A stretch of 64,000 nucleotides of DNA from Arthrobacter globiformis (GTDB taxonomy: Bacteria; Actinomycetota; Actinomycetes; Actinomycetales; Micrococcaceae): NCBI RefSeq assembly GCF_030818015.1, contig NZ_JAUSZX010000001.1, forward strand, positions 2,294,001-2,358,000. The letters are read 5' to 3'. This document shows positions 12,595 through 48,988 of this stretch, in pieces. Both the position numbers and the translations under genes were made by a program. Within the stretch, counting starts at the first letter, position 1, and each line of letters starts with the position of its first letter. The notes beneath the pieces are model-generated. The model did no database searches. It worked only from the letters and a program-made list of their open reading frames with translations, and was not told the DNA's origin.

Positions 12595-13531
12595 TCAGGA
12601 GCGGATGGCGACCAGGCGTCCGTTGACTTCGCCACGCTCGAAGCGTCGGATGGAGTCGTAGATTTCGTCGAAGCCTATTGTCTCGACGTGCGAGGACACA
12701 GTGCCTTGGGCGATGAGGTTGAGAACTTCTGCGCAGTCCTCGTTGGTGCCTCCATTCGAACCGAGATAGCGCAGCTGTTTGAGGATCATCGTCGTGGTCG
12801 AGATATTCGTCCGCTCCGTTCCCATGCCGACCTGAACGACAGCACCCCGGAACCCGACCGTTTCGATAGCGTCATCGGTCGTGGTATCGAACCCCGCGTA
12901 GTCAACAATCACGTCGAGGTCCTCATCGGCGAAGTCGCGAATGTTCTCAGCGAGCCCATCGATCCCGAAGCCGGAGATGCGTTCCCAAGCGACCGCGGTT
13001 CACCTCCGCCACGTAGATCTTCGCACCGAGCGCCTTGGCGAACTGGATCGCCAGGCTGCCCAGCCCGCCAGCACCTATGATCCCCAGCTTGGTCCCCGAC
13101 TGAACACCGCCTACCTTGAGCGCATGGTAGGACGTCATGCCCGCATCGGTGGCCGGCGCAGCCTGCTCCCACGCCACACCGTCCGGAACCGGGATGACCT
13201 GATAGTCGAAGGCCTTAACCTTGTCCGCGAAGCCGCCGTCGGTGCCCGTCCCGGGGCCTTGGATGGTTGCAGGGATGGCTACTCGCTGGCCTAAGGACAG
13301 GCCGGTGACTGCGTCTCCCAGTTGTGCCACGATCCCTGCGATTTCGTGTCCGAGAGTGATGGGGGTGAAGCCCAGAATGCCAGTGAGCGTGCCGTCCAGG
13401 TATCCCACGTCGGTGTGGCAGATTCCCGCGGCCTTGACATCGATCACCACCTCGTTGGGCCCTGCCACGGGGTCAGGTACGTCCATGAGCTTGAGTGGTT
13501 CGTTCGCAGCAGTCAGCCGCCATGCTTGCAT
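12595..13531 (-). pseudogene. Zn-dependent (MDR) alcohol dehydrogenase, one-base frameshift
   Basis: The frame from the ATG at 13531 gives an MDR dehydrogenase: AAGICHTDVGYLDG (catalytic Zn Cys), ITLGHEIAGIV (Zn His) and LGIIGAGGLGSLAIQFAKALG (NAD site). Near 12991-12998 there is an extra G (CGCGG for CGCG). Removing it continues as AWERISGFGIDGLAENIRDF and then DYAGFDTTTDDAIET to GEVNGRLVAIRS at 12595. The reconstructed protein has about 312 residues and lacks the four structural-zinc Cys. It is the last gene of the P450 operon. A role in oxidising an alcohol intermediate is inferred. The shift may be real or a base-run sequencing error. Confidence 0.8.
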
Positions 13532-13742
13532 GAAAAGCTCCCATCGTTGAAAACCCGTGTTTTGCGTGCCGCCTCGTGTTGGTGACCCGATCTGCGCGAT
13601 TTCCTAAGCGGCGACGGCGGCGAAGCCGAGGCAATCGATAAGTTCCATGGCCTCGATATTAGCGGTAGAGCCATAGGCCCGAGCCTGAGTAATCAGGGTG
13701 TCGTCCGTTAGCTATGTGTGATTTCGCAGGATGCACAGCACG

Positions 13743-14675
13743 TTATGCGGTCCGGAAGCCCCAGACGACCCCTTTTGATGTCGTTGGATCCGTGACGATG
13801 CTTTGGTCTTGGCGATGAACGATTGAGACGCCTTCGTGTTCGAGGTGTGCTGCTGCTGCTTTGACGTCCAGGACGTCAAAGGTGATGCCGAGATACTGAT
13901 CGGTGTGGGTCGGTTCGCCGGTGAGCACGTCCATGATGGGCTCGGTGCGGGGTGTTGCGAAACGGAGCACGGACTTTGCGTAGGCTATTTCGACACAGTC
14001 GGCGTCCATCTCCGGGTCGTGGAATTCGTCGACGACTTTGCCGTCCAGGACATCGGCAAAAAGCTTCTTCGCTCGGGCGCGGTCCTTCGTCAATATGGTG
14101 TGATAGGCGGTGCGCACGATCCCGAGAGGATCGTCTTCAACGACCCGATCCGGCCTCCAGTTTGGGCTCAGACGGGGATCGGCATGTTCGGAGTATTTGT
14201 CCCAGTGGCGTCGGGCCATGTCGTAGAACTCGTATGTTAGGCCTGTATCTTCTGGAAGGGACCAGATCATGGGGCAATCGGCGACGAGGTTGGACTCTGG
14301 GACCACGCCGTCGTGGATGATGTTGCCTTCCTGGTCCCGCGTCCGGAAGCCGTGTGTTTCAAGTTGCCGGGAGACTTCCTCGATGCGGTCGGTGTACCAG
14401 GCGATGTCGGAGAGGCCCTCACCTTCGGGGTATACGGCTTTTTTCCCGCCGGGGAGAACCAGGAGGGAGGGGCACAGGACATCCAGGCTGACATCGCCCA
14501 GGACATAGAAGTATGAGTAGTTAATAGGGTAGGTCGGGTTGAGCAAGGTCAGATCCCACTTGTTTTCCCAACGCACCTCGGGCCGGCCAAAGACCCGGCT
14601 GAACCAGGCGGACGACTGTTCAAGGTCTTCGACGATCAGTGTCGGGTGGAACATCATGGGAAACGGGTTCCACAT
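13743..14675 (-). CDS. Two-domain VOC (extradiol-dioxygenase-fold) protein
   Basis: 310 residues from the ATG at 14675, with GAAGGAG eight bases upstream. There are two glyoxalase/VOC modules. Module 1 spans about 1-150 (MMFHPTLIVEDLEQSSAWFS ... DTGLTYEFYDM) and module 2 about 185-305 (TAYHTILTKDRARAKKLF ... YLGITFDVLD). The fold is that of extradiol ring-cleavage enzymes, but the ligand set differs. His in FHPT and Glu in TYEF are visible in module 1 and His in YHTI in module 2; the usual second His is not obvious. A paralogue sits at 28058-29026. It is the tenth gene of the P450 operon. Ring cleavage, isomerase or binding roles are all possible. Confidence 0.75.
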   Translation of the reverse strand: MWNPFPMMFHPTLIVEDLEQSSAWFSRVFGRPEVRWENKWDLTLLNPTYPINYSYFYVLGDVSLDVLCPSLLVLPGGKKAVYPEGEGLSDIAWYTDRIEEVSRQLETHGFRTRDQEGNIIHDGVVPESNLVADCPMIWSLPEDTGLTYEFYDMARRHWDKYSEHADPRLSPNWRPDRVVEDDPLGIVRTAYHTILTKDRARAKKLFADVLDGKVVDEFHDPEMDADCVEIAYAKSVLRFATPRTEPIMDVLTGEPTHTDQYLGITFDVLDVKAAAAHLEHEGVSIVHRQDQSIVTDPTTSKGVVWGFRTA

Positions 14676-15041
14676 GGGCGGTACTCCTTCATGTCGGGGC
14701 GGGTTGCTTTCGCAACAGGTACGTTCGGTTCTGTCGGTATGCGCATTTCTGGCTGGTGGAAACCGGTGCCGGTGCCGGTGCACGCGGCACGGCGCGCGGG
14801 AATGAGGCCGTGGCTTGCCGTCCGTACGTTCGCCGGGGGCTCGGGCCTTAGCTCCTCGGCGGTCGTTCAGGGGGCTGGGCCCGAGCGCCCCTCATCTGTG
14901 CTCGTCGGCAGGCCATGTTTGATTCAGGGTTCTGGTCACAAGTCGGACGGCTGTTGCGAACCCTGCTCAGGCATTCATAAGTGCGGGGGACATGACGGTG
15001 TCCATGGACTGCCGCTACTTTGGGTGCGGCCGGTGGGCCTT
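14676..15041. other. Gap within the operon with a long-loop hairpin
   Basis: The 366 bases separating the VOC and SDR genes hold no gene. GCTCGGGCC (14839-14847) pairs perfectly with GGCCCGAGC (14878-14886) across about 30 bases, which may attenuate or process the operon mRNA. The size of the gap suggests a lost gene or a second promoter. Confidence 0.35.
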
Positions 15042-15974
15042 CTAGGCGCCGAGGTCCGCGGGATTCATGTTCTTGAAAGCCTCGGCAACGGAAGGATTTG
15101 CCGCAATCATCTCGTCAGCGAACTGTTGGCCGGTGACACGGTACTGGGTGAGGTCCTCGGAGTCCGCGCTCAATTGGTCAGCGACTGCGATCCATCCCTC
15201 GGGGGCGTTCTCGGTGGACTGGACCCGTGGCAGGCCCGTCAGAACCATCCGACTTGCTCGGCCGCCGCTGACCTGGAACATGTCCCCGTGCACCGTGGTG
15301 TCCTGGTGCGAGAGGTAGGCAACGAAATTTGCGACGTGCTCGGGACCGAGCCCGTCGCGTAGTGTACGGATGATGTTCGGGTCGCTATAGGCGCTCTCCG
15401 TCATGGGTGTCCACGCCGTGGGCATCAGCGTTGAAACCTGTACACCAACCCGGTCTCCCTCCTGGGCGAGCGTGTTGCCCAGCGCCCAGATCGCGCCCTT
15501 GGCGGCGCCGTAGGCCGCGGCGCCGGGATTGGCCAGAATGCCGCTGGAGGAGACGAGGATCAGGCGGCCGGAACCGGACTTCACCAGGTGTGGCCATGCA
15601 GCTTGGGAAAGCTCCACCGTGCCCCTGAAGGAGACATCGAAGACCTTCCAGAATTCCTCCATGGGTTGCTCTCCAAAGAGCCCGACGCGGATGATACCTG
15701 CGTTGTTGACCACGATGTCCAGTTGCCCGAAAGCGTCAAGGGCGGTTTGGACGATCCGGGAGGCCTCGTTGGCAACATCATGTACGTCGATGACAGCGGT
15801 TCCACCAGCGCCTTCGATCTCCTTCACAACCTGCTCGGCGTGCTCGCGGGAAACATCGTTGACCACTACCCGGGCACCACGTGACGCGAGAGTGACGGCG
15901 TGGGCCTTGCCCATTCCTTGACCGGCACCGGTAACAATGGCAACGCGCCCTTCGAACTTCAACAATTCCTTCAT
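15042..15974 (-). CDS. Short-chain dehydrogenase/reductase with C-terminal extension
   Basis: About 310 residues from the ATG at 15974. AGGAG abuts this ATG, so a start a few codons downstream cannot be excluded. The Rossmann motif TGAGQGMGKAH lies at about residue 15 and NNAGII at about 94. The catalytic Ser is in ILVSSSG (about 145) and the Tyr/Lys in AAYGAAKGAI (about 158-162). After the core, about 60 extra residues (APEGWIAVADQLSADSEDL ... AEAFKNMNPADLGA) resemble the tail of SDRs related to 3-hydroxyacyl-CoA dehydrogenases of multifunctional beta-oxidation enzymes. Within the P450 operon it could oxidise a secondary alcohol or a hydroxyacyl-CoA. Confidence 0.85.
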   Translation of the reverse strand: MKELLKFEGRVAIVTGAGQGMGKAHAVTLASRGARVVVNDVSREHAEQVVKEIEGAGGTAVIDVHDVANEASRIVQTALDAFGQLDIVVNNAGIIRVGLFGEQPMEEFWKVFDVSFRGTVELSQAAWPHLVKSGSGRLILVSSSGILANPGAAAYGAAKGAIWALGNTLAQEGDRVGVQVSTLMPTAWTPMTESAYSDPNIIRTLRDGLGPEHVANFVAYLSHQDTTVHGDMFQVSGGRASRMVLTGLPRVQSTENAPEGWIAVADQLSADSEDLTQYRVTGQQFADEMIAANPSVAEAFKNMNPADLGA

Positions 15975-16126
15975 CTCCTTCTGCTTAGGCTTCCGCTGTC
16001 CTATGAGAATCATCGGCTCCTGGCCAGGGACCGACAAGGTCATCACGGGTTCCGGGCCGGAGCCACACACGAAGGCGCGACCCCGGCCCAGCGTCGTCTA
16101 CTTCAAGCCCCGACGTGGGCTACCAG

Positions 16127-16519
16127 TCACACGGACGCTGCCTCCTGGGCATGGAAAGGTTCCCGCAAAGTGGCTTCGGGGATCCAGGTGAAGCGGTCCA
16201 CTTCGAAGATTTCGAAGTGGCTGCAGAACCCGATATCGTCTGCCGCAGCTTCCGTCCATGCTTCCGACTCAGCGATTTTGGCCTTGGATTCTTCGGAATC
16301 GAACATCATCACGACGATTGCGTCGGGCTTGGCGGCTCCTCCGATCACGGGCCAGCCCTCCTGCGAGTTCTTGTTCATGAACGATTCGTACCAAACAAGA
16401 CCCGGGATACGCATTCCAATCTTCGCGTGTACGTCCTTGTAGTGCGTTTGGAACTCTTCGGCGCTTGTGCCGGCCCAGCGGTATACCTCGAAGGCGAGGA
16501 CGGGTCCGTTGTTTGCCAT
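16127..16519 (-). CDS. EthD-like dimeric alpha/beta-barrel protein
   Basis: 130 residues. The sequence LAFEVYRWAGTSAEEFQTHY, then KDVHAKIGMRIPGLVWYESF, follows the EthD/DABB pattern (conserved HY.. VHA... P.....Y). EthD-type proteins accompany P450 monooxygenase systems such as the ethyl tert-butyl ether system, where they are required but their reaction is unclear. It sits directly downstream of a CYP108-like gene (72-base gap) in the same operon, which strengthens the assignment. AAAGGAAACACAACC precedes the ATG at 16519. Confidence 0.75.
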   Translation of the reverse strand: MANNGPVLAFEVYRWAGTSAEEFQTHYKDVHAKIGMRIPGLVWYESFMNKNSQEGWPVIGGAAKPDAIVVMMFDSEESKAKIAESEAWTEAAADDIGFCSHFEIFEVDRFTWIPEATLREPFHAQEAASV

Positions 16520-16591
16520 GGTTGTGTTTCCTTTCGGTGGTTTACTTGTTTCGGAGCGGTGTCATGGTGGGGCGTCTTGCATCCTGGCGGA

Positions 16592-17887
16592 CTATGCAGG
16601 TGTGATCCGAACCGGCAGGGTTTTGGGGCCGGACAGGAAATTCGCGGCCACGAACAGCGGTTCCCCGAGTAGCTCGACCTTCGCCAGGCGGGGGAGGAGT
16701 TCCTCGAGGACGATTCGCATCTCGAGCTTGGCCACGTGCTGGCCGATGCACTGGTGCGGGCCAAAACCGAAGGCGAGGTGTTTGTTCGGCTTGCGGGTGA
16801 TGTCAAACTCGTTCGGGTTCTCGAAGACTTCCTCGTCGCGGTTCGCGGACGGGTACAGCAGCATGACCCCGTCGCCGGCGGACAGCTTGCGGCCGCGGAA
16901 CTCGGTGTCCTCCGCCACGATCCTGAAGAAGTGCTTGACGGGCGATGCCCAGCGAAGGGCCTCGTCGACGACGCCGGGGATCAGGCTCGGGTCGGCGTGC
17001 ACCGCGTCGAGCAGTTCGGGATGGCGCGCGAATTGCTCGATGGCGCCCGAGATCGTCGACGAGGTGGTGTCGTGTCCGGCCGTGGCGATCGCGACGTAGT
17101 AGCCGTTGACGAAAGACTCTGGCAGATACTCTCCGTCGACCTTGGCGTTGGCGATGAGGGAGGCGAGGTCGTCGGTCGGGTTCTTCCGGCGGTCGGCCGA
17201 CAGTTCGTTGAAGTAGCGGAAGAAGTCCTGCAGCGTTGCCTTCCACGCTTTCGCGCTAGCGCCCTCGCCATCGTCGGCGTCGCTGCGTTTGGAGTCTTCA
17301 TCGGTCGTACCGAACAGTGCCTGTGTGAGGGTGAGCATCATTGGTTCATCCTCGGGCGGAACGCCGAAGAGGGTCATGATGACCCGCAGCGGGTAGTACA
17401 GCGAGAAGTCCTTGACGATGTCGACCTCGCGATCGCCCGTCAGGAGCTTGTTCACGGATGCGCGGGCGAGTTCGCGGATCGCTTCTTCGCGTTTGCGGAC
17501 GTTGGCCGGCATGAACCAGGCGCTCGTCACGTTCTTGATCTTCGTGTGTTCCGGGGCGTCCATGTAGGCGAGGGTGTCCTGCGTCCGCGCACCGTTGTTC
17601 GCGGCCTTCAGGTATTCGCGCCCGGCCCGGTCGACGAGGAACGGGTCGGCCTTCGCGCTAGAGAAGATCTTGGGATTGCGTTCGATCTCCATGATGTCAG
17701 CGTGCTTCGTTGCCAGCCAGACGGGATCGTAGCCGTCGATCTTGGCCAAGCCGAAGGGGTTGTTGGCTCTGAGCCACGCGAGTGCCGGATAGGTGCGCGT
17801 CTGCTCTTCGGCGTAGGAGGCAGGCAGCATCACTGCTTCGGCTATGTGGTTTGGGACTATTGCTGTGTCAGTCACGGTCTCGGTCAT
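16592..17887 (-). CDS. Cytochrome P450, CYP108-like (copy 1)
   Basis: 431 residues. This is a class I bacterial P450 that hydroxylates with O2 and electrons from ferredoxin. Across its length it resembles CYP108A1 (P450terp, alpha-terpineol hydroxylase, 428 residues): IEGYDP..WIATKHAD-type start (here IDGYDPVWLATKHADIMEIE), MDAPEHTKIKNV, YYPLRVIM, AIATAGHDTTSS in the I helix (about 267-278), EALR at 309-312 and the heme loop FGFGPHQCIG with Cys380. There is no membrane anchor. A redox chain is encoded in the same operon (21183-22777). The substrate is inferred to be a monoterpenoid or similar hydrocarbon. Confidence 0.92.
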   Translation of the reverse strand: MTETVTDTAIVPNHIAEAVMLPASYAEEQTRTYPALAWLRANNPFGLAKIDGYDPVWLATKHADIMEIERNPKIFSSAKADPFLVDRAGREYLKAANNGARTQDTLAYMDAPEHTKIKNVTSAWFMPANVRKREEAIRELARASVNKLLTGDREVDIVKDFSLYYPLRVIMTLFGVPPEDEPMMLTLTQALFGTTDEDSKRSDADDGEGASAKAWKATLQDFFRYFNELSADRRKNPTDDLASLIANAKVDGEYLPESFVNGYYVAIATAGHDTTSSTISGAIEQFARHPELLDAVHADPSLIPGVVDEALRWASPVKHFFRIVAEDTEFRGRKLSAGDGVMLLYPSANRDEEVFENPNEFDITRKPNKHLAFGFGPHQCIGQHVAKLEMRIVLEELLPRLAKVELLGEPLFVAANFLSGPKTLPVRITPA

Positions 17888-17966
17888 GGTGTCCTTCCGG
17901 TGGTCGGAATATCGGTTCTCGCGGGACAGGTGCGGGCGGGAGGCCCGCCCGCACCCGCTGACGCGG

Positions 17967-19610
17967 TCAGGCGGGGGCGCCGGAGGTCGCGGCCAGGTAG
18001 GGGCAGCCCGAGGCTGCAGCCTCGTCCTGCGCTGAGGTGACGCCGCGGAGCAGGTCAGCGGCTTTCTCTCCGATCATGATCGAGGGCGCGTTGGTGTTGC
18101 CGCTGGTGATTTGCGGCATGATCGAGGCGTCCGCGATGCGGAGCCCTGCTATGCCGTGCACGCGCAGCTCAGCGTCGACGACGCCTGTCTCCGGCGTGCC
18201 GATCCGGCAGGACCCGGCGGCGTGATACATGTGCTGCGTGTCGGCGCGTACCCACTGCTCCCGCAGGGCGCCGGTGACCGAAGTGCCGGGGTTTACCTGC
18301 TCCCGCAGAATCGACCGGAGCGGTGATTGCTGGGTAAGCTCCGAGACGAAGTCGAGTGCCCGGAGGACAGCATCGACCTCATGCTGCTGGCTGAGCAGGT
18401 TGCTGACAATGCGCGGGGGAGCCGCTGGGTCTGCTGAGCGAAGCGTGACGGCGCCTCGCGAGCTCGGGCCGTTGTAAGACAGCCCGATGGACATTCCGAG
18501 GGTGTTGGGGGACCGGAATCCATGCTCCCAGAACCAGCCCGGGACGAAGATCATCTGAAAGTCCGGGCTGGCAAGGGCAGGGTCGGAACGCCAGAAGATC
18601 GCGGCTTCGCCGGCGTTGGATGTAAGCACGCCCGTGCGGGAAGTGCGCCACTCTTCTGCTGCGGCGGGATCGCCGGCGACGGCGAGAGTGTTATCGGCAT
18701 CCGTCGCGTAGTGGGTCAAGGTGAATGGATGGTCCTGAAGGTTTCGGCCGACCTGGGGGGAGTCGAGCACGACGTCGATTCCGAGGGCGCGGAGTTCGTC
18801 TGCCGGTCCGATGCCCGAGAGCATCAGGAGTTTAGGGGTGTTGTAGGCGCCGGCAGAGAGCACGATTTCACGTCCTGCCCGGGCGGTGACAACGTCGCCG
18901 TCGTGCTCGAACTGGACGCCGACGGCGCGTCCGGACTCGACGAGGATGCGCTGCACGTAGGCGTTGGTCACCAGCACGAAGTTCTGCCGGGCCAGTGCCG
19001 GGCGCAGGAAGGCGTCCGCCGAAGAGCAGCGCTGTCCGTCGCGGCCGGTCACCTGGAGCCGGCCGACGCCGGCCTGCTGTGCACCGTTGATGTCGTCGTT
19101 CCGCTCGATGCCGAGCTGGACCGCCGCGTCGATGTAGTTCTGCTCGTACCCGGAGAACCAGCGCTTTGTCGTGACACCCATCGGTCCGTCGGTACCGTGA
19201 AATTCGTCCTGGAGGTCCGTGTTCGCTTCGGAGCGCTTGAAGTAAGGCAGGACCTGGTCATAGGACCATCCCGTGGCCCCGTGTTCGTTCTCCCAGGCAT
19301 CGAAGTCCCCGCGGGCGCCGCGTACGTAGAACATGGCATTAAGGGAGGAGCTGCCGCCGAGCACCTTGCCGCGCGGCAGGAACAGCCTTCGACCTGCAAG
19401 ACCGGGTTCCGGGTCGGAGTTGTAGTTCCAGTCTTTTTCACCTTGGAAGAGGCCGGCGAACAGAAGTGGGGTGCGGATCAGGTCGTCGTCGTCGCTTCCG
19501 CCAGCCTCAAGGAGCAGGACGCTGTAGCCGTCCTCACTCAAGCGTCCGGCGACGGCACAGCCGGCAGACCCGGCGCCGACGATGATGTAGTCGTAGTCAT
19601 AATCTTTCAT
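17967..19610 (-). CDS. GMC-family FAD alcohol oxidoreductase
   Basis: 547 residues of glucose-methanol-choline type. The FAD fold is YIIVGAGSAGCAVAGRLSE (about 9-27) with LLLEAGG at about 34. The GMC signature 1 is LPRGKVLGGSSSLNAMFYVRG (about 79; split here as LPRGKVLGGSSSLNAM and FYVRG). Signature 2 includes LSAGAYNTPKLLMLSGIGP. The catalytic His is in HMYHAAGSCRIGT (about 463) and the C-terminal Asn in TSGNTNAP (about 505). Such enzymes oxidise primary alcohols to aldehydes. Directly downstream of the aldehyde dehydrogenase gene and upstream of P450 copy 1, it is well placed to oxidise the P450 product. The extra tail ending ATSGAPA is unusual but short. Confidence 0.9.
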   Translation of the reverse strand: MKDYDYDYIIVGAGSAGCAVAGRLSEDGYSVLLLEAGGSDDDDLIRTPLLFAGLFQGEKDWNYNSDPEPGLAGRRLFLPRGKVLGGSSSLNAMFYVRGARGDFDAWENEHGATGWSYDQVLPYFKRSEANTDLQDEFHGTDGPMGVTTKRWFSGYEQNYIDAAVQLGIERNDDINGAQQAGVGRLQVTGRDGQRCSSADAFLRPALARQNFVLVTNAYVQRILVESGRAVGVQFEHDGDVVTARAGREIVLSAGAYNTPKLLMLSGIGPADELRALGIDVVLDSPQVGRNLQDHPFTLTHYATDADNTLAVAGDPAAAEEWRTSRTGVLTSNAGEAAIFWRSDPALASPDFQMIFVPGWFWEHGFRSPNTLGMSIGLSYNGPSSRGAVTLRSADPAAPPRIVSNLLSQQHEVDAVLRALDFVSELTQQSPLRSILREQVNPGTSVTGALREQWVRADTQHMYHAAGSCRIGTPETGVVDAELRVHGIAGLRIADASIMPQITSGNTNAPSIMIGEKAADLLRGVTSAQDEAAASGCPYLAATSGAPA

Positions 19611-19662
19611 GATGGTCTCCTCAATTCCTGAATCGTGGACGATCGTCTGTCGTTAGGCCGGT

Positions 19663-21123
19663 TCACGGCGCGTTGTAGATCGTCTTGAGGCTCTGGTATG
19701 CGGCCAGTCCCTCCGGACCTTGTTCCCGGCCCAGTCCGCTGGCCTTGACGCCGCCGAACGGCGAACCGATGTCGTGGCTGTAGAAGTTGATGCCAACGCC
19801 GCCGGTCTGGATACGGCGTGCGACGTCGAGGGCGCGATCGGTGTCCTGTCCCCAGACAGAACCACCGAGGCCGAATTCGCTGTCGTTGGCCATCGCGATG
19901 GCGTCATCGATTGTGTCGTAGGGAATGACGGCCAGGACCGGGCCGAAGATCTCTTCCCGTGCAATCGTTGAGTCGTTGGTGACGTCGGCGAAGACCGTGG
20001 GCTCGATGAAGTAGCCCCGGTCGAGGTGGGCAGGGCGCTTGCCGCCGGTGGTGATTCGGCCACCTTCGGCCAGCCCCACCTCGATGTACCTCTCGACGCG
20101 GGCACGTTGCCGTTCCGAGACGAGCGGTCCCACCTGTGTGGCCGGGTCGAGGGCGTCACCGACCCTGAGTGAGCCCACGATGTCAGTGATCTGGTCGACG
20201 AATTCGTTGTATTTGGCACGTGGGGCGAAAATACGCGTGCACAGGTAGCAGGTCTGGCCGTTGTTCTGCAGCGTGGCATCGACGAACTCCGCCGCCAGCG
20301 CGGGAAGATCTGCGTCGTCGAGAAGGATGGCTGCGGACTTGCCTCCGAGTTCGAGCGTCACGGGGCGAAGCAGCTGGCCGCAGGTAGCGCCGATGCTGCG
20401 GCCAGCCTCGGTTGAGCCCGTAAAGCCTACTTTGTCCACGCCGGGGTGGCCTACGAGGTAGGCTCCCACTTCACGGCCCGCAGGGACGATGTTCAGGACT
20501 CCTGCGGGAATGCCCGCCGCCTGGGCGGCCTCAGCCAGGGTGTAGGAGTCGAGGACTGTCTCGGGCGACGGCTTGATGACCATCGTGCAGCCTGCTGCCA
20601 GGGCGGGAGCGATCTTGACGAACGCGAGAGCCTGGGGAAAGTTCCACGGGACGATTGCTGCGACAACGCCGACCGGCTCGTGCCGCACGCGGGTCGGGCG
20701 GCCGAAGATGCCGGCACGCTGCTCCTCGATGCCCCTTTCGCGGATGAGACCGGCGTAATAGCGCAGTGCAACGGCTGGGAAGCCGCCCTCAACGGGCCCG
20801 GACATCGAGATGGGCATGCCGTTCTGGCTGCTGACCTGACGCGCGATTTCGCCGCCCCGCTTTTCGAGTTCGTCCGCGAAGCGTTCGATGATCTCGGCTC
20901 GGCGGTCGGCGTCCCATGAGGCCCACCCCTGGGGATCGTCGAATGCTGCGCGGGCTGCCTCGACTGCCCGGTCGACGTCTTTCTCGTGGGCTTCGGGGAC
21001 CTGCCCGACGGGCTCCTCCGTCGATGGATTGACGGGCCGAATCACGCTGTTGGTTGAGGGGTCGACCCATTCCCCGCCAATGTACAGCTGGGTTTGAGTG
21101 GTCGTTTCGTCAGTGACAATCAT
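19663..21123 (-). CDS. Aldehyde dehydrogenase (NAD-dependent)
   Basis: 486 residues from the ATG at 21123 with GAGGAG upstream; a longer frame starting at 21387 only overlaps the ferredoxin gene. Family residues are present: Asn161 (PWNFP), Lys184 (IKPSPET), Glu258 (LELGGKSA) and the nucleophile Cys292 (NNGQTCYL), plus EEIFGPVL and the C-terminal PFGGVKASGLGREQG. It oxidises an aldehyde to a carboxylate in the cytoplasm. Between ferredoxin and the GMC alcohol oxidase gene, it would complete an alkyl-OH to aldehyde to acid sequence, as seen for p-cymene or perillyl-type substrates. The exact aldehyde is unknown. Confidence 0.92.
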   Translation of the reverse strand: MIVTDETTTQTQLYIGGEWVDPSTNSVIRPVNPSTEEPVGQVPEAHEKDVDRAVEAARAAFDDPQGWASWDADRRAEIIERFADELEKRGGEIARQVSSQNGMPISMSGPVEGGFPAVALRYYAGLIRERGIEEQRAGIFGRPTRVRHEPVGVVAAIVPWNFPQALAFVKIAPALAAGCTMVIKPSPETVLDSYTLAEAAQAAGIPAGVLNIVPAGREVGAYLVGHPGVDKVGFTGSTEAGRSIGATCGQLLRPVTLELGGKSAAILLDDADLPALAAEFVDATLQNNGQTCYLCTRIFAPRAKYNEFVDQITDIVGSLRVGDALDPATQVGPLVSERQRARVERYIEVGLAEGGRITTGGKRPAHLDRGYFIEPTVFADVTNDSTIAREEIFGPVLAVIPYDTIDDAIAMANDSEFGLGGSVWGQDTDRALDVARRIQTGGVGINFYSHDIGSPFGGVKASGLGREQGPEGLAAYQSLKTIYNAP

Positions 21124-21177
21124 GGCATTTCTCCTCAAGGTGGTGCTTAGTGGTGGGTTGATGGAAGCTGCGGATGT

Positions 21178-21581
21178 GCGGTTCAGCCTTGGGAGGGTGG
21201 GGTCCGGACGCAGAGGCCGTCGTGTTCGGCGCCGAGCAGGAGCTGGCAGGAAAGGCGGGATGTCGGCCGGGCTTCGTCCAGGAATTCGATGAGGGCTTCC
21301 TCCTCCGGTGCCGGTTCTTCGAAGGTGTTGTGCCAGGGTGCGTCGACGTATACGTGGCAGGTGGCGCAGGAGCAGCCGCCGCCGCATTCGGCGACGATGC
21401 CGTCGATGCCGCGCAGCGTTGCGACTTCCATGAGGCTCATGCCGGGTTCGACTTCAACGGGCTGTTCTTTTCCGTCAGCGGTGACGTAGGTGATCTTGAT
21501 CAAGGGGTTTCCTCGGTGGATCAGGCGGGAACGAGGTCCCGCAGGGGAATGGAAATGTCGGGGAGGAGATCGATGGAAGGG
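21178..21581. repeat. Duplicated ferredoxin segment, copy 1
   Basis: This 404-base segment matches 25510-25914. The ferredoxin coding part is identical except around the start codon, and a few differences occur in the adjoining 3' end of the reductase gene. Direct orientation, 4.3 kb apart. Confidence 0.9.
21183..21503 (-). CDS. 2Fe-2S ferredoxin (putidaredoxin type), copy 1
   Basis: 106 residues. It carries electrons from the ferredoxin reductase to the P450s. Cluster ligands follow the adrenodoxin/putidaredoxin pattern: Cys40, Cys46 and Cys49 in ECGGGCSCATCHV and Cys86 in RLSCQL. The C-terminal region LLGAEHDGLCVRTP is typical of P450 ferredoxins. The start must be a TTG (21503), because the base pattern GGAAACCCCTTGATC replaces the CCCCCATGATC of copy 2. 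Translation may therefore be weaker than that of copy 2. It lies 17 bases after the reductase stop and 59 bases before the aldehyde dehydrogenase gene. Confidence 0.92.
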   Translation of the reverse strand: MIKITYVTADGKEQPVEVEPGMSLMEVATLRGIDGIVAECGGGCSCATCHVYVDAPWHNTFEEPAPEEEALIEFLDEARPTSRLSCQLLLGAEHDGLCVRTPPSQG

Positions 21582-22777
21582 GAGGCGCCGGAAGCGATCC
21601 ATTTCTTTCCTGCCATGAAATCTCCGGGTGCGTTGACTGCCTCCACCGCGAGAAGCCGATCGGCGGCGTCCAGGTGGTAGATTGCGAACGAGGCCGAGGA
21701 AGGGTTGCCGCGCAGTATCGTGCGGGATGACCCTGCGAGCAGCCCGGCGATCTTGAGGTTTACGTCGTACTGATCGGACCAGAACCAGGGCACCTCGGCG
21801 CGGGGTACAGCCCGGCCGGTGATGGCCGCCGCGGCCTGCTTTGCCTGCTCCGTGGCATTCGGTATGCTCTCCAGCCTGATCCGCCCTGGATAGCCCGGCA
21901 CTTCCCGGCGCGTTACGTCCCCCACTGCGTAGACACGGGGCAGGCTCGAGCGGGCGGATGCGTCGACGACGACGCCGCCGTCGCACTCTGCCCCCAGTTG
22001 CCGCAGCAACTCGTCCCGGGGCTCGGCTCCGACTCCGATGACTATGGCGTCGCAGGGAAGCCGTCTACCATCTTCGAGAATGACAGCCTCGACCGCGCCG
22101 TCCTCGCCGGCCACGACCTCCTTCAGTGCCGCGTTGACGAGGATATCGACGCCCTTGTCCCGGTGGAGCGCGGTCAATGCCTCCGAGAGGAGCGGGCTCG
22201 CCACGCGCTGCAGGAGGCGCTCCTCGCGTTCGATGACAGTGACCTCGCACCCGCGGCTCCGTCCCGCGGCAGCGACCTCGAGTCCGACGAAGCCGCCGCC
22301 GATGATGACGACACGTGAGCGTGACTGAAGCACAGAGCGGAATCCGATGGCGTCGCGGTAGGTCCTCAACCACCAGCAGCCGCGTTCGGGTAGCGCATGC
22401 GGCAACGTGCGGGCTCGTGCACCAGTCGCCAGAACCAGCTCGTCAAAACCAAGCTCCGTCCTGTCATCTAGCGTCGCAGTACGGGTGGGCAGGTCCACGG
22501 ACTCAACCCGGCGGCCGAGCTTCAGTTCGATGTTCTGGTCCGTGTAGTAGGACGGGGCACGGAGCAGATCGGCGTCGGCCTCCCCATGGAGGTACGCCTT
22601 GGAGATCGGCGGGCGGTGGTACGGGTACTCGTCCTCGTCGCCGACTATAGTGATGGTGCCTGAGTGCCCGTACTGGCGCAGTGTTGCGGCTGTGGCGGCC
22701 CCGGCGTGGCCGGCACCCACGATGAGGACGCGTGATTGCAGGGAATCAGACTGTGTTGCCGTGTCGTTGGCACTCAT
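21521..22777 (-). CDS. Ferredoxin-NAD(P)+ reductase (putidaredoxin-reductase type)
   Basis: 418 residues. It is an FAD protein that passes electrons from NAD(P)H to the 2Fe-2S ferredoxin. FAD site: VLIVGAGHAGAATAATLRQYG (about 16-36, given as VLIVGAGHAGAATAA plus TLRQYG). NAD site: VVIIGGGFVGLEVAA (about 156). Second FAD contact: VYAVGDVTRR. The C-terminal reductase domain has PWFWSDQYDVNLKIAG. The ATG at 22777 lies just 2 bases after the stop of P450 copy 2, so the two genes are tightly coupled. A stub of a second reductase gene lies at 25854-25916. Confidence 0.92.
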   Translation of the reverse strand: MSANDTATQSDSLQSRVLIVGAGHAGAATAATLRQYGHSGTITIVGDEDEYPYHRPPISKAYLHGEADADLLRAPSYYTDQNIELKLGRRVESVDLPTRTATLDDRTELGFDELVLATGARARTLPHALPERGCWWLRTYRDAIGFRSVLQSRSRVVIIGGGFVGLEVAAAGRSRGCEVTVIEREERLLQRVASPLLSEALTALHRDKGVDILVNAALKEVVAGEDGAVEAVILEDGRRLPCDAIVIGVGAEPRDELLRQLGAECDGGVVVDASARSSLPRVYAVGDVTRREVPGYPGRIRLESIPNATEQAKQAAAAITGRAVPRAEVPWFWSDQYDVNLKIAGLLAGSSRTILRGNPSSASFAIYHLDAADRLLAVEAVNAPGDFMAGKKWIASGASPSIDLLPDISIPLRDLVPA

Positions 22778-22779
22778 CT

Positions 22780-24078
22780 TCAGGCTGCCTCGAACCGGAT
22801 CGGAAGGGTCTTGGGGCCGGACAGGAAGTTGGCCTGGACGTAGCTGACAGGACCAGCCAGCTCGATCGACTTCAGGCGCGGCAGCAGCTCCTCGAAGAGG
22901 ATACGCATTTCGAGTTTCGCCACGTGCTGTCCGATGCACTGGTGGGGGCCGTATCCAAAGGCGATGTGCCTGTTCGGTTTGCGCGTGATGTCAAAGGAGA
23001 ACGGATCGGTGAAGATGTCCTCGTCACGGTTGGCCGACGGGTACATCAGCATGAGGCTGTCGCCTTCGCGCAGCTGGCGGCCACGGAACTCCATGTCTTC
23101 GCCCACGATGCGGTGGAAATGCTTGACGGGGGAAGCCCAGCGGAGAGCCTCGTCCACCAGTCCCGGAATGAGGGAGACATCATCGCGTACCGCCCTCAGC
23201 TGCTCCGGGTGGGCCGCCAGCTGCTGGATCGCTGTTGCCGTCGTTGCCGAGGTCGTATCGTGGCCAGCGGTGGCGATGGCAATGTAGTAACCGTTGACGA
23301 ACGAGTCGGGCAGTGGCGCCCCATCGACCTCTGCGTTCGCGACAATCGAGGCGAGATCGTGGGTAGGGTTCGCCCGCCGTTCGGCAGAGAGCTTGTCGAA
23401 GTACTGATGGAACTCGAGAACCGCTTCGCGCCAGGCACGCGCCGCAGCCTCCGGCGTGGCGGGAACGTCCGTGCGCTGGTGCTCCGGGTCCGAGTTGCCG
23501 AACATCTCCTGGGTCAGCTTGAGCATCGTCGGTTCGTCCTCTTGCGGAACACCGAACAGGCTCATGATCACGCGCAGTGGGTAGTGGAGCGCGATGTCTT
23601 TGACGAAGTCGACCTCCCCGTCGTAAGAGAGCAATTTTTCCACCGACTGCCGTGCAATAGCCCGGATCGCCTCTTCCCGCTTACGGACATTCGCGGGCAT
23701 GAACCAGGACGCAGTGACGTTCTTGATCTTGGTGTGTTCGGGGGCGTCCATGTTGGCCAGCGTGTCCAGGCCCCGCCTGCCCTCGTTCATGGTTTTGAGG
23801 AATTCGGTGTCAACCACTGAATTGATGTAGGGCTCGCCGAGACCACTGCGGAAGACCGTCGGGGTCCGTTCGATCTCCATGATGTCGGCATGCTTAGTGG
23901 CCAGCCAGATGGGAGCATAGCCTTCGACCTCGGCGCGGGCGAAGGGCATGTTTTCGCGCAGCCACGTCAGTGCCGGGTGCACGATGCCGGCCTCATCGCG
24001 GTAGGAGGCTGGAAGGATCACGGATTTGGCGACGTCGTCCGGGATGATGGCCTGGTCTTGGGTGACGGCAGTAGACAT
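22780..24078 (-). CDS. Cytochrome P450, CYP108-like (copy 2)
   Basis: 432 residues from the ATG at 24078, preceded by AGGAGATCCCTC; longer upstream frames lack support. Like copy 1 it resembles CYP108A1: VEGYAPIWLATKHADIMEIE, MDAPEHTKIKNV, HYPLRVIMSLFGVPQEDEP, AIATAGHDTTSA in the I helix, EALR and the heme loop FGYGPHQCIG with Cys381. The two P450s are clear paralogues but differ in the B-C loop (about residues 80-105) and at the substrate-facing segment after the I helix, so different substrates or positions are likely. First P450 in the operon, between the SnoaL-like gene and the reductase. Confidence 0.92.
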   Translation of the reverse strand: MSTAVTQDQAIIPDDVAKSVILPASYRDEAGIVHPALTWLRENMPFARAEVEGYAPIWLATKHADIMEIERTPTVFRSGLGEPYINSVVDTEFLKTMNEGRRGLDTLANMDAPEHTKIKNVTASWFMPANVRKREEAIRAIARQSVEKLLSYDGEVDFVKDIALHYPLRVIMSLFGVPQEDEPTMLKLTQEMFGNSDPEHQRTDVPATPEAAARAWREAVLEFHQYFDKLSAERRANPTHDLASIVANAEVDGAPLPDSFVNGYYIAIATAGHDTTSATTATAIQQLAAHPEQLRAVRDDVSLIPGLVDEALRWASPVKHFHRIVGEDMEFRGRQLREGDSLMLMYPSANRDEDIFTDPFSFDITRKPNRHIAFGYGPHQCIGQHVAKLEMRILFEELLPRLKSIELAGPVSYVQANFLSGPKTLPIRFEAA

Positions 24079-24158
24079 GAGGGATCTCCTGGTGATGGGT
24101 CCCCACGAGTGTGGGGCGAACGGGGTGGGGTGGGAGCTGAAGATGGCGCCTGGCGTGA

Positions 24159-24668
24159 TCAGCCGAAGACGCTCTGTTCCTGGTCGCCTTGGGTCCAGAC
24201 GACGCGCAGGTGCATGCGGGACAAACGCCAACCTTCGGGAGTGCGGCGGAAAGTCCATTCGTAGGGGCCGCCGATGTCGTAATGCTTTGAGGGATTTTCT
24301 GGGTCCTGTACTCCGGCGAACCAAAGGTAGGCGGTGCCGGTGGCAGTATCCCCGTCGACCTCGAACTGCATGTTTGTCATTGAATGCTGCATGGAGAGGT
24401 AGGGTTCTTCCGCGGCCTCGCATACCTCACGGATCTTCTGCCGGCCGTGGTGTGTACCGAAAGGCCCGAATTCGAATTCAGCGTCCTCGACGAAGCAAAG
24501 GCTCCAGGCGTACCAATCCTTCGCGTCGGAGGTGCGGCAATAGCGATTCATGAGAGCCCCGAGGGCTTCCTTATCTTCAAGGACCCTGAGGCGGGCTTCG
24601 AGTTGCTGGACATAGTCGGTCAGCGCAGTGTCAGTTCCTGTGGTTGGGTTCACTTCTTGAGTAGTCAT
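24159..24668 (-). CDS. SnoaL/NTF2-like fold protein, first gene of the P450 operon
   Basis: 169 residues. Core: LRVLEDKEALGALMNRYCRT, DWYAWSLCFVEDAEFEFGPF, GRQKIREVCEAAEEPYLSMQ and HSMTNMQFEVDGDTATGTAY, the conserved pattern of the SnoaL_4 / nuclear transport factor 2-like group. These cone-shaped folds serve as isomerases, cyclases, dehydratases or small-molecule binders. No catalytic Asp/His pair is certain here. It opens the operon, 80 bases before P450 copy 2, so a role in handling the hydroxylated product is possible. GGAAGG precedes the ATG at 24668. Confidence 0.8.
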   Translation of the reverse strand: MTTQEVNPTTGTDTALTDYVQQLEARLRVLEDKEALGALMNRYCRTSDAKDWYAWSLCFVEDAEFEFGPFGTHHGRQKIREVCEAAEEPYLSMQHSMTNMQFEVDGDTATGTAYLWFAGVQDPENPSKHYDIGGPYEWTFRRTPEGWRLSRMHLRVVWTQGDQEQSVFG

Positions 24669-25138
24669 GGCATACCTTCCGTTTCTCCCCCTTGCAGACG
24701 TCGATGTTTGCGATGGGGTGCTGTTCTCGTTTTCCGGTGTAGCTACAGCGCCATAGTGGATTGGGGGAGCATCACCGGATGGAAAAAGGCTATTGTTGTG
24801 ATTCGGCTCACGGTAGGGCTCAGTTCGCTATTAGATGATGCTTCCTTGGCATCACCCCCTGCGAGGGTTCAGACACGATCCGAACTTCTCATCGTCGTGT
24901 CAGGATTTTTCGAAGGGTTACTCAATGAGTGAGCGCGAAGAAACCTGGAGCTTGGATTTCAAGGACGCTGAGGCGAATGGCTGTTAGCCAAGTAATTCTG
25001 CCGCGGTTGCGGGATCAAGAAGGGCGAAGCTGTCGCCTTAGGGAGCCAGTCTCGTGGCATGTAGTTCGAACGCTTGATTGCCGATGATTGGGCTCTGCGG
25101 CAGAAGACACATGCCTGTCGAGGCCTTCCAGGTCGGGG
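24669..25138. other. Upstream region of the P450 operon
   Basis: 470 bases without a gene. It should hold the operon promoter, and it contains the conserved 61-base element at 24798-24858. No -35/-10 pair could be assigned with confidence. Confidence 0.5.
24798..24858 (-). promoter_or_regulatory. Conserved upstream element, site 1
   Basis: This 61-base stretch aligns without gaps to 26023-26083 (43 identical positions), including GTGAT at one end, TCACGGTAGG inside and ATCACCCC at the other end. The nearest gene start is 24668. A shared element upstream of two related units, next to a LysR gene, suggests a common regulator site or a duplicated promoter. Confidence 0.55.
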
Positions 25139-25285
25139 CTAAAGCCTGCTGCGGAGCCTGTCGGGTGAGCAAACGAAGAACGTCGGCTGCTCCACCTGGG
25201 CGAACGGCACCACGAGCCATCGGCCGCCGTAAAATTCGACATACGAGTCAGGGGAGCATTTTGCGAAGGCTTCTTCACGTGTCAT
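25139..25285 (-). CDS. 48-residue protein of unknown function
   Basis: ATG at 25285 with AAAGGA seven bases upstream; stop TAG at 25139. The protein begins MTREEAFAKCSPDSYVEFYG and continues with GRWLVVPFAQVEQPTFFVCS. Its varied composition, with few Arg/Pro/Ala runs, is unlike a shadow frame. Two Cys (10 and 39) are present. It follows the 46-residue ORF by 60 bases and is downstream of ferredoxin copy 2 on the same strand. Family unknown; it could be a small accessory protein or the start of a lost longer gene. Confidence 0.45.
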   Translation of the reverse strand: MTREEAFAKCSPDSYVEFYGGRWLVVPFAQVEQPTFFVCSPDRLRSRL

Positions 25286-25345: not shown

Positions 25346-25486
25346 TTATTCATAGTGCAGCCCCGACCAGGGAAGGGCAGCTAAAGTGCTGCCCACCTCG
25401 GCAGGCTGGTGGTCGTCCTCAAGCCGACTGGCTTGAGCCGCTGCCTCCAACGAGTCGGCACAGGGGCATTGGAATTGGTCCGTCAT
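25346..25486 (-). CDS. 46-residue Cys-containing protein of unknown function
   Basis: ATG at 25486 with AAGGAG upstream; stop TAA at 25346. The sequence starts MTDQFQCPCADSLEAAAQAS and goes on with RLEDDHQPAEVGSTLAALPW. The CxC pair near the start may bind metal. It lies 28 bases after the ferredoxin copy 2 stop, which suggests co-transcription. Family unknown. Support comes from the strong ribosome site and the composition. Confidence 0.45.
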   Translation of the reverse strand: MTDQFQCPCADSLEAAAQASRLEDDHQPAEVGSTLAALPWSGLHYE

Positions 25487-25509: not shown

Positions 25510-25914
25510 GCGGTTCAGCCTTGGGAGGGTGGGGTCCGGACGCAGAGGCCGTCGTGTTCGGCGCCGAGCAGGAGCTGGCAGGAAAGGCGGGATGTCGGCC
25601 GGGCTTCGTCCAGGAATTCGATGAGGGCTTCCTCCTCCGGTGCCGGTTCTTCGAAGGTGTTGTGCCAGGGTGCGTCGACGTATACGTGGCAGGTGGCGCA
25701 GGAGCAGCCGCCGCCGCATTCGGCGACGATGCCGTCGATGCCGCGCAGCGTTGCGACTTCCATGAGGCTCATGCCGGGTTCGACTTCAACGGGCTGTTCT
25801 TTTCCGTCAGCGGTGACGTAGGTGATCTTGATCATGGGGGTTTCCTCGGTGGATTAGGCGGGAACGAGGTCCCGCAGGGGAATGGAAAGGTCGGGAAGGA
25901 GATCGATGGAAGGG
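25510..25914. repeat. Duplicated ferredoxin segment, copy 2
   Basis: Matches 21178-21581 almost perfectly. It has one extra C before the start codon and ATG in place of TTG on the coding strand. It covers the whole ferredoxin gene and the last about 20 codons of the reductase gene. Confidence 0.9.
25515..25835 (-). CDS. 2Fe-2S ferredoxin (putidaredoxin type), copy 2
   Basis: 106 residues, identical in protein sequence to copy 1 (21183-21503) but with an ATG start behind CCGAGGAAACCCCC. Ligands are again Cys40, Cys46, Cys49 and Cys86. The upstream partner is only a stub of a reductase gene, so electrons must come from the full reductase at 21521-22777. Having its own upstream element (26023-26083) and a better start codon, this may be the main ferredoxin supply for the two P450s. 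Near-identity indicates recent duplication or gene conversion. Confidence 0.92.
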   Translation of the reverse strand: MIKITYVTADGKEQPVEVEPGMSLMEVATLRGIDGIVAECGGGCSCATCHVYVDAPWHNTFEEPAPEEEALIEFLDEARPTSRLSCQLLLGAEHDGLCVRTPPSQG

Positions 25915-25916: not shown

Positions 25917-26268
25917 CGCCGGGAGGGCGTTGGCCACTGACGAAAGCTGTCCGCGGTCGCCGGTGCGCTTTCCCGGACCTCCCGATCGATGCCTTGGCTT
26001 GCTTGGTATTAAACTTATGGGGGTGATCTGGGTCACGGTAGGCGCCGCTTTGTTATCAGGTGATGTGTCCGGGAGATCACCCCTGTGGGGCAATTCGGCG
26101 CATCCGCCGCGGCCATGCCTCTGGTGCTGCCCCTTGAGGACGCGGATGGCGGTGGTTCTGTGCCACGCTGGACAGTGCATTCCCGACTTCTCTTAGCAGG
26201 GAGGGGAACATAGACTGGATGGAATCATGTGTTCCATCGCACACCGTTGTGCGAGAAGGAGATCGCCC
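25917..26268. other. Divergent region between ferredoxin copy 2 and LysR gene
   Basis: About 350 bases without an intact gene. It contains the conserved element at 26023-26083, including the inverted pair GGGTGATCT (26021-26029) and AGATCACCC (26074-26082). Position and symmetry fit control by the divergently read LysR-type gene. Confidence 0.5.
26023..26083 (-). promoter_or_regulatory. Conserved upstream element, site 2
   Basis: Homologous to 24798-24858 (43 of 61 positions). A perfect 9-base inverted pair, GGGTGATCT / AGATCACCC, brackets it. It lies between two divergent transcription units, the LysR gene and ferredoxin copy 2, as LysR-type targets usually do. Confidence 0.6.
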
Positions 26269-27192
26269 ATGGATGTGCGGCAACTTCAACTGTTTATCGC
26301 TGTGGCCGAAGAAGGCAGCATTCACGGCGGTGCCCGCCGGATGATGCTGGCGCAGCCGGCCGTGTCAAAGTTGTTGCGCGCTCTCGAAAGACAACTTCAA
26401 ACACAGCTGGTCCAGCGTTCGCCCCGAGGTATTGAACTGACGGTGGCGGGGAAGCTGCTGCTCGAACAGGCTTACGAGATTGTCCGCTCGTTGGAGCGGA
26501 CCGTCGACATCGTCCAACAGGCCGGTAGGAGCCAGAAAACCCTGACCGTAGGGTTGATTTCCGGGGCGGCTTCGGCGTCGGAGTTGACTGCCGACATTAT
26601 CCGGGGCTTTCAGCGTCTCTGTCCGGATGTCACGGTCGGGGTGCGGGAGCTGGACTTCGCCGACCAATTTACGGCGGTCGTGGACGGGCATGTCGATGTT
26701 GCCCTCGTCCGCGCTCCTTGTGGAGACGAACGGGTGAGCACAACGCCGCTTTTTGGCGAGCCGTTAGTTTTGGCGCTCAGGTCAGATCACAAACTGGCAG
26801 AGGCATCGATGGTGTCTGCTGATGCAATCATGGACGAAACGATGCTGGCCATGGGCGACGCTCCGCCGTCGTGGACGAGTTTCTGGCATCTGGATGACCT
26901 TCGCAGGTCTGCCCCGAGAACGGGCCAATCCGTACGCACGCTCGCGGAGCTGCAATTTGCGTTGATGAGCAGCAGAGAGGTGGTCATGCCGATGACGCTC
27001 ACCGCCTGGCGGATGAGTGCCCAGTATTCCGATTTGCGGGCACTGCGAATCGATGGGGCACCTTCCTCAACCGCGGTTGCCATGACGCGTCAAAATGACG
27101 ACCGCGAGCATGTCTTGGCCTTTACTGCTCACGCCCGTGAAGTCTCGCGCCAACTTCTGACAAAGGTCCCTGAAGCTGTGTTGCCAACGTAG
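26269..27192 (+). CDS. LysR-type transcriptional regulator
   Basis: 307 residues from the ATG at 26269 with AAGGAG eight bases upstream. The N-terminal winged helix is MDVRQLQLFIAVAEEGSIHG, then GGARRMMLAQPAVSKLLRALE (about 2-60) with the classic recognition helix. A PBP-like effector domain follows (about 90-290: TVGLISGAASASELTADIIR ... RVSTTPLFGEPLVLAL). LysR regulators usually bind the divergent promoter and activate it when a pathway intermediate is present. Adjacent targets would be ferredoxin copy 2 and, through the similar element at 24.8 kb, the P450 operon. The effector is unknown. Confidence 0.9.
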   Translation: MDVRQLQLFIAVAEEGSIHGGARRMMLAQPAVSKLLRALERQLQTQLVQRSPRGIELTVAGKLLLEQAYEIVRSLERTVDIVQQAGRSQKTLTVGLISGAASASELTADIIRGFQRLCPDVTVGVRELDFADQFTAVVDGHVDVALVRAPCGDERVSTTPLFGEPLVLALRSDHKLAEASMVSADAIMDETMLAMGDAPPSWTSFWHLDDLRRSAPRTGQSVRTLAELQFALMSSREVVMPMTLTAWRMSAQYSDLRALRIDGAPSSTAVAMTRQNDDREHVLAFTAHAREVSRQLLTKVPEAVLPT

Positions 27193-34941: not shown

Positions 34942-34954
34942 TGCGTTTGACGCA
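34942..34954. promoter_or_regulatory. Palindrome TGCGT-TTG-ACGCA
   Basis: A perfect 5-3-5 inverted repeat directly before the annotated ATG of the IclR gene, with the same half-sites as 34911-34923. It lies in the divergent promoter region shared with the operon starting at 35107. Confidence 0.6.
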
Positions 34955-37743: not shown

Positions 37744-37826
37744 AACGCCCAGCCGCCGCGCACGCAACCCGCCTCACAAGGGGGTGCAGAACCAATGACA
37801 GCAACACACCTGAAAGGGACAGCACC

Positions 37827-48978: not shown

Positions 48979-48988
48979 GATGGGTCCC

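Follow-up and report, generated by a model that had tools for sequence, protein, structure and literature searches.

Which compound does a soil Arthrobacter oxidize with two closely related cytochrome P450s encoded in one operon, and how far does the gene set that serves this chemistry reach? The question is raised by a 64,000-nucleotide stretch of Arthrobacter globiformis DNA, here called the window (G000:C1:2294001-2358000, from a 5.09-Mb genome referred to as G000). The original prediction described an operon of eleven genes in it, with two CYP108-like P450s, a complete redox chain and enzymes for alcohols, aldehydes and rings. On balance, we favour the view that the operon is part of a catabolic island, in which a LysR-activated set of genes with two CYP108 P450s would oxidize a hydrophobic ring compound and a second, linked set of genes (module B) would then act on the ring.

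The claimed order and families of the eleven genes, all on the minus strand, were confirmed by open reading frames (ORFs) and by Pfam, which gave, in order, SnoaL_4, p450, Pyr_redox_2/Reductase_C, Fer2, Aldedh, GMC, p450, EthD, adh_short, two Glyoxalase domains and ADH_N/ADH_zinc_N. The first core gene encodes a SnoaL_4-type protein of 169 amino acids (24159-24668; PF13577, 7.2e-31), with 71-97% orthologues in four relatives. It is followed by P450a (22780-24078), a ferredoxin reductase (21521-22777) that lies, as claimed, 2 bases from P450a, a [2Fe-2S] ferredoxin, Fd1 (21183-21503, TTG start), and an aldehyde dehydrogenase (ALDH) of 486 amino acids (19663-21123; Aldedh, 8.8e-157). Next come a GMC-family FAD alcohol dehydrogenase/oxidase (17967-19610; GMC_oxred_N/C; top PDB match 8b7s, 5.2e-118), P450b (16592-17887), an EthD-domain protein (16127-16519; PF07110, 4.3e-7; 78-98% in four relatives) and an SDR oxidoreductase (15042-15974, with a chosen and uncertain start; adh_short, 9.9e-42). 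The tail consists of a two-domain VOC protein (13743-14675; Glyoxalase_4 and Glyoxalase) and a Zn-alcohol dehydrogenase (Zn-ADH; 12595-13531).

With the starts chosen, the gaps from SnoaL to the Zn-ADH are 80, 2, 17, 59, 52, 79, 72, 152, 366 and 211 bases. SnoaL to EthD is the tight part, and the 366- and 211-base gaps leave VOC and ADH only loosely attached. What stands of the single eleven-gene operon is a nine-gene core from SnoaL to SDR; the VOC-ADH tail is found at this place only here and in a close congener, G025, and the ADH is broken here. Its two ORFs (12947-13531 and 12595-12912) lie in different frames, and the alignment shows one base more than in the intact copies of G025 and A. 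hankyongi. The Zn-ADH keeps the family and place assigned to it as the terminal gene, with its frame broken in this genome and intact in two relatives; the extra base may be a real frameshift or an assembly error. Scans for sigma-70 promoters and terminators gave counts no higher than shuffled sequence (4 versus 3.5 and 14 versus 15.5), and Rfam at the gathering score gave no match in 12000-34000.

Both P450s carry the p450 domain and the core motifs AGHDTT, EALR and FGxGPHQCIG (FGYGPHQCIG in P450a), and the two proteins, of 432 (P450a) and 431 (P450b) amino acids, are 64.7% identical. A P450 is assigned to a CYP family at about 40% identity or more to a named member, and to a subfamily at about 55% or more. 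P450a and P450b share 49.5 and 52.4% with CYP108A1 (P450terp), 48.9 and 51.5% with P450tol and 43.2 and 42.7% with CYP108D1; P450tol and CYP108A1 are themselves 47.6% identical. By the 40% rule both are members of CYP108, in agreement with the original prediction, and with respect to CYP108A1 both fall below the subfamily threshold. A midpoint-rooted tree of 56 rows accords with this placement but contains no outside group, so that the placement rests on identity; it also carries a long-branch warning (CYP108D1 with a Hyphomonadaceae row). In this tree a P450a clade and a P450b clade (7 rows and 100/100 each) join row P0010 in a 15-row clade (99/97), within which the branching order of the three lacks resolution. 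The two P450s are close paralogues that probably arose near the operon. Relative to G025, P450a has 48 synonymous and 10 non-synonymous codon changes.

How the paralogues might divide their work was considered by comparison with the 11 toluene-lining residues of P450tol (PMC11219674). Six of these are identical in P450a, six in P450b and eight in P450terp. P450a and P450b differ from each other at two of the 11, Tyr84/Phe83 and Met192/Leu191, which makes a division of labour possible. The Met/Leu difference is fixed across all seven a-rows and seven b-rows, and at the other position Tyr is present in six of the a-rows and Phe in all seven b-rows; of 13 fixed differences between the clades, 5 fall at positions 76-89, round the Tyr/Phe position. 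This pattern suggests that the enzymes differ in a tuned substrate pose or oxidation state, rather than in acting on unrelated substrates.

The redox chain proved as complete as had been claimed: a class I set of reductase (Pyr_redox_2 and Reductase_C) and ferredoxin, together with alcohol- and aldehyde-oxidizing enzymes. Fd1 (Fer2) matches PDB entries 3hui (3.4e-29), 1e9m (1.2e-23), 1gpx (1.2e-21) and terpredoxin 1b9r (1.2e-21) over about 100 of its 106 residues, and by this near-full-length similarity it is a ferredoxin of the putidaredoxin/terpredoxin type. The first reading of the sequence had overlooked a second ferredoxin gene, Fd2 (25515-25835, minus strand, ATG start), between SnoaL and the LysR gene. 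The two proteins are identical over 106 residues, and of the 321 coding bases only one, the opening base of the start codon, distinguishes the genes. The duplicated stretch, of about 405 nucleotides, takes in the 3' end of the reductase gene, and the copies lie 4.3 kb apart.

Two near-identical stretches at such a distance could be an artefact of assembly, but G025, a separate assembly, also holds both copies, and the flanks upstream of the two differ. An artefact is thereby already refuted, unless the error is common to both assemblies, and we give it almost no credence; because of G025 the duplication is very likely real. Copies are 1 of 321 bases apart within each two-copy genome and 1-3 apart between G000 and G025. 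A hint of gene conversion comes from one site, where the two copies agree within a genome but not between the genomes. Within the stretches examined, A. hankyongi and Georgenia have the ferredoxin gene inside the operon only, A. oryzae has it in front only, and G000 and G025 have it in both positions. Two small ORFs between Fd2 and SnoaL were considered and set aside as lacking support as coding: 25346-25486 (46 amino acids), which has a look-alike in A. oryzae and shows 0 synonymous and 4 non-synonymous changes relative to G025, for which reason it is unsupported as a gene, and 25139-25285 (48 amino acids), whose protein is identical in G025.

How far does the island reach? Compared with G025, the window is collinear over 12499-33324 at about 97% DNA identity. 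The genes originally assigned to the operon all lie inside this conserved unit, which is larger than had been claimed (12.5-33.3 kb) and also holds the LysR gene, a VOC/FAD-dehydrogenase/MFS module and an IclR gene. We examined four relatives with two P450s: G025, A. oryzae CC159, A. hankyongi and Georgenia. All four keep the order EthD-P450b-GMC-ALDH-FdR-P450a-SnoaL (FdR, ferredoxin reductase), which is more than chance. SDR adjoins this core in three and has moved to the other end in Georgenia. VOC2, FADb2, MFS1 and IclR1 are linked to it in all four, in a changed order in Georgenia. Beyond IclR1, A. hankyongi has an ADH and a 51% relative of the VOC protein, and A. oryzae a 49% relative.

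The distribution of the island is sporadic. Among 206 congeners, 4 (this genome being one) had a match to P450a at E ≤ 1e-100, and three of the four had two matches; P450b at E ≤ 1e-150 was found in 2 of the 395 genomes drawn from the family and 2 of the 394 drawn from the class, both sets being samples of larger groups and both counts including this genome. In a protein search, both P450 types appeared on a contig of Geodermatophilus. Relatives with one P450 occur in a Subtercola metagenome-assembled genome and on megaplasmids of Rhodococcus opacus VOC-14 and Rhodococcus USK10. Among plasmids, VOC2 gave a single record (Rhizobium, 36%) and SnoaL 24 records, all below 60%. The island has probably been moved horizontally. 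On a plasmid of Citricoccus sp. SGAir0253, about 5 kb separates an unannotated CYP108-like stretch (L126:26667-27982, in two adjacent match pieces) from a 64% relative of FADb2. Between ADH and ferredoxin, the operon of the VOC-14 plasmid (L103:11521-13829) encodes a DUF7064/DUF7065 protein and a phosphotransferase of the APH type.

A LysR-type regulator gene (26227-27192, plus strand; HTH_1 and LysR_substrate) is divergent from the operon in G000, G025, A. oryzae and A. hankyongi, with a palindromic site, read by eye, between them. The motif CCTACCGTGANCCNNATCAC lies upstream of both SnoaL and Fd2, and a second palindrome, GGTGATGC..GCATCACC, precedes it, most clearly in A. hankyongi. Before SnoaL, the upstream part of this bipartite site is the inverted repeat GTGATGCCAAGGAAGCATCA at 24836-24855, with a likeness by eye in five genomes, and the second half lies at 24798-24817; before Fd2 the corresponding parts are an inverted repeat at 26059-26081 and a second half at 26023-26042 (all on the minus strand). 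By eye, the site before SnoaL is present in all five genomes viewed (G000, G025, A. oryzae, A. hankyongi and, degenerate, Georgenia), and the site before the front ferredoxin in G000, G025 and A. oryzae.

Pattern counts add less. A 20-base pattern had 2 matches in the window against 0.01 expected, having been derived from these same two sites. The 17-base ACCGTGASCNNNNTCAC, also written from island sites, had 12 exact matches in the five whole genomes, 9 of them in the island (3 of 4 in G000, 3 of 3 in G025, 2 of 3 in A. oryzae, 1 of 1 in A. hankyongi and 0 of 1 in Georgenia), a count that shows only that 3 matches fall elsewhere. With up to one mismatch, matches on the forward and reverse strands against those of a reversed-pattern control were 31/11 in G000, 37/14 in G025, 35/20 in A. 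oryzae, 30/13 in A. hankyongi and 40/7 in Georgenia; since Georgenia has no exact island site, this excess is non-specific. Positional conservation across genomes is the better evidence for the bipartite site, and the simplest reading is that a LysR-type activator binds there.

Module B consists of three minus-strand genes. VOC2 (28058-29026) is a two-domain VOC protein with the fold of HPPD and hydroxymandelate synthase and a paralogue (39%) of the operon VOC protein; for neither did a PDB sequence search give a match at E 0.1. The enzymes HPPD and hydroxymandelate synthase carry a His-His-Glu iron triad in the C-terminal domain. In an alignment of 29 sequences, H194 of VOC2 is invariant and the other two strands have no obvious His or Glu, as far as an alignment without geometry can tell. 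We considered VOC2 as a classical HPPD-type dioxygenase and set this candidate aside: the fold fits, but the iron triad is not evident in the alignment. FADb2 (29098-30486) is a FAD_binding_2 dehydrogenase of the fumarate reductase/ketosteroid dehydrogenase superfamily (Pfam, 1e-65), and its PDB relatives include the ketosteroid dehydrogenases 4at0 (9.3e-32) and 4c3x (8.3e-23). Fumarate reductase has a catalytic Arg in a TVRG segment; the aligned segment of FADb2 is TAYY, with Tyr in the Arg column. MFS1 (30592-31959) resembles MFS metabolite/H+ symporters, below the NCBIfam cut-off. The IclR-type gene IclR1 (32020-33066, plus strand, longest ORF) is divergent from MFS1; its helix-turn-helix domain starts only at residue 85, which makes a later start codon probable. 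A palindrome, TTCTC..GAGAA (32119-32135), before MFS1 is kept by eye in G025, A. oryzae, A. hankyongi and Georgenia and is a candidate IclR operator. A second cluster in the window (34156-42267) holds IclR2 on the minus strand and MFS2, NIPSNAP, SDR2 and three FAD_binding_2 dehydrogenases on the plus strand; one of the latter (37827-39221) is about 73% identical to FADb2. Relatives of these genes sit together in A. hankyongi, on a different contig.

We hypothesize that the parts work together as follows. A LysR-type activator would turn on SnoaL-P450a-FdR-Fd-ALDH-GMC-P450b-EthD-SDR through the bipartite palindromic site. P450a and P450b, with one reductase and ferredoxin as electron source, would hydroxylate the methyl group, or a neighbouring position, of a small hydrophobic ring compound, and GMC followed by ALDH would oxidize the alcohol to the acid. 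SDR, ADH and FADb2 could then make a ring ketone and desaturate it, and VOC2 or VOC could rearrange or open the ring. Module B, co-inherited, would be under IclR control, and EthD and SnoaL would have supporting roles.

The gene content, families, CYP108 identity, conserved linkage, doubled ferredoxin and repeated site are observed, and the substrate class, the order of reactions, the binding of the regulator and the membership of module B in the same pathway are inferred. Several points weigh against this scheme. The relatives with one P450 hold P450, FdR, Fd, ALDH, GMC and LysR without module B. The Subtercola genome, when searched, yielded no VOC2 and only a distant FAD_binding_2 match, and the 41-kb plasmid stretches of R. 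opacus and USK10 gave no match to VOC2 or FADb2. The four genomes in which core and module B are linked had been picked for their P450s. GTGA-N6-TCAC alone is not significant: it occurs 3 times against 0.97 expected, and 6 of 100 shuffled sequences contain at least as many. The copy ahead of module B matches exactly in two genomes (G000 and G025), has one mismatch in A. oryzae and is degenerate in A. hankyongi; none was found when it was looked for in Georgenia, whose LysR protein is 42% identical and not divergent in orientation. Co-regulation of module B through this third site (32093-32106) was downgraded, the site being inexact or not found beyond these two genomes and a different palindrome lying upstream.

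The operon and module B might then be unrelated pathways that merely travel together. Not having been found with the one-P450 operons in the sequences searched, module B may serve something else, and the different regulators (LysR and IclR) and the different palindrome before MFS1 point the same way. Against these stand the linkage in all four two-P450 relatives examined, including Georgenia with its rearranged order, and the FADb2 relative close to the CYP108-like stretch on the Citricoccus plasmid. We regard unrelated pathways as a serious but doubtful alternative.

The substrate of the P450s may be of the terpenoid or alkylaromatic class, the monoterpenoid-like compound of the original prediction being one possibility. 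P450terp and P450tol are about equally near to the window P450s, so that sequence does not separate a monoterpenoid from an alkylbenzene. Hydroxylation of terpenoids or p-cymene is reported for CYP108N12, CYP108N14 and CYP108A1, and of toluenes for P450tol (PMC11279926, PMC7794910, PMC11219674); CYP108N12 and CYP108N14 accept p-cymene and CYP108N12 also p-xylene (PMC11279926), CYP108J1 accepts polycyclic aromatic hydrocarbons (PMC7037279) and P450tol accepts toluenes (PMC11219674).

An alkylbenzene of the toluene, xylene or p-cymene type, oxidized to a benzoate-type acid, is conceivable, although we incline against it. Besides the closeness of P450tol, both window P450s share its tryptophan (W216/W215) where P450terp has Phe, but at three other pocket positions it is P450terp, and not the window P450s, that matches P450tol. 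The relative on the R. opacus VOC-14 plasmid comes from solvent-contaminated soil, and the A. hankyongi cluster includes a phenol-hydroxylase-type enzyme; no ring-hydroxylating dioxygenase, however, was found among the window proteins scanned with Pfam, and a FAD_binding_2 desaturase would be superfluous for an aromatic substrate. A larger polycycle, diterpenoid or steroid-like, on whose ring ketones SnoaL would act as isomerase, FADb2 as desaturase and SDR as dehydrogenase, appears improbable. The relation of FADb2 to ketosteroid dehydrogenases and the Tyr in its fumarate-reductase arginine column would suit it, as would the PDB list for P450b, which after the CYP108 group continues with the steroid-type CYP125MRCA (297 bits) and CYP142 (209 bits). 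Those scores are far exceeded by P450tol (496) and P450terp (490), P450a likewise scores 485 with P450terp against 305 with CYP125MRCA, and no coenzyme A (CoA) ligase was found among the same scanned proteins.

Returning to the small ring compound that we favour, we tentatively suggest a more specific, so far undescribed and CoA-free route, which we consider possible but less likely than not. The paired CYP108s, GMC and ALDH would take a cyclic terpenoid-like compound to the acid, a flavoenzyme like ketosteroid dehydrogenase (KstD) would desaturate it and the HPPD-fold VOC protein would open or rearrange the ring; the ferredoxin gene would have been caught moving from the operon to a LysR-type promoter copy in front.

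Elsewhere in the window, 44129-52898 holds a glycoside hydrolase family 32 gene, an oligopeptide-type ABC transporter and a LacI regulator, and 60605-62607 an IS21-type insertion element with an IstB ATPase and a transposase with a Mu-type C-terminal domain.

Among known systems, the terp operon of a Pseudomonas sp. carries P450, FdR, Fd, ADH and ALDH, and its CYP108A1 7-hydroxylates alpha-terpineol. The window shares with it a CYP108 P450, a ferredoxin reductase, a putidaredoxin-type ferredoxin, an ALDH and a Zn-ADH gene. It differs in having two CYP108 paralogues, GMC in the alcohol-oxidation slot and a frameshifted ADH, so that an intact terp-type set (P450, FdR, Fd, ADH and ALDH) is not present here; the ADH is intact in G025. 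It also differs in SnoaL, EthD, SDR, VOC, LysR, the linked FAD-dehydrogenase/VOC module and the doubled ferredoxin. Genes beyond the terp operon had been noted at the outset, and they reach further than was then seen.

The P450tol-like operons (7v40; plasmids of R. ruber MSA14 and R. erythropolis X5) likewise keep P450, FdR, Fd and ALDH together. Unlike the window, they have a single P450, 50-53% identical to ours, and an NAD(P)-dependent alcohol dehydrogenase, with GMC absent from the stretches viewed; their regulators are of the LuxR type, and CoA-type genes (AMP-binding, acyl-CoA dehydrogenase and MaoC) lie nearby. The operons of Subtercola, VOC-14 and USK10 share GMC (60-62%), ALDH (64-68%), FdR, Fd and LysR; the P450s of the first two are 62-68% identical to ours and that of USK10 69% to P450b. 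They differ in having one P450 and a rearranged order, with SnoaL, EthD, VOC2 and FADb2 unmatched in the stretches viewed. CYP108N12 and CYP108N14 of Rhodococcus globerulus, compared by description only, are actinobacterial CYP108s that hydroxylate p-cymene, limonene and, for N14, terpineols (PMC11279926).

Literature searches returned no publication joining GMC oxidoreductase, EthD, SnoaL and cytochrome P450, and none joining cyclohexanecarboxyl, aromatization, cytochrome P450 and FAD; both are weak absences, as subscription papers fall mostly outside their scope. The enzyme types are known, and no described pathway was found with this layout, extra enzymes and doubled electron-carrier gene. 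If our reading is true, the island would supply a defined gene set in which to test for terpenoid or alkylaromatic catabolism by a soil Arthrobacter, with P450 paralogues kept paired, GMC at the alcohol-oxidizing step and a ring module that may work without CoA. The ferredoxin gene lies inside the operon, in front of it or at both positions, depending on the relative, and its coding sequences are near-identical in the two-copy genomes; this variation is a natural experiment on whether class I P450 operons are limited by the dosage of their electron carrier.

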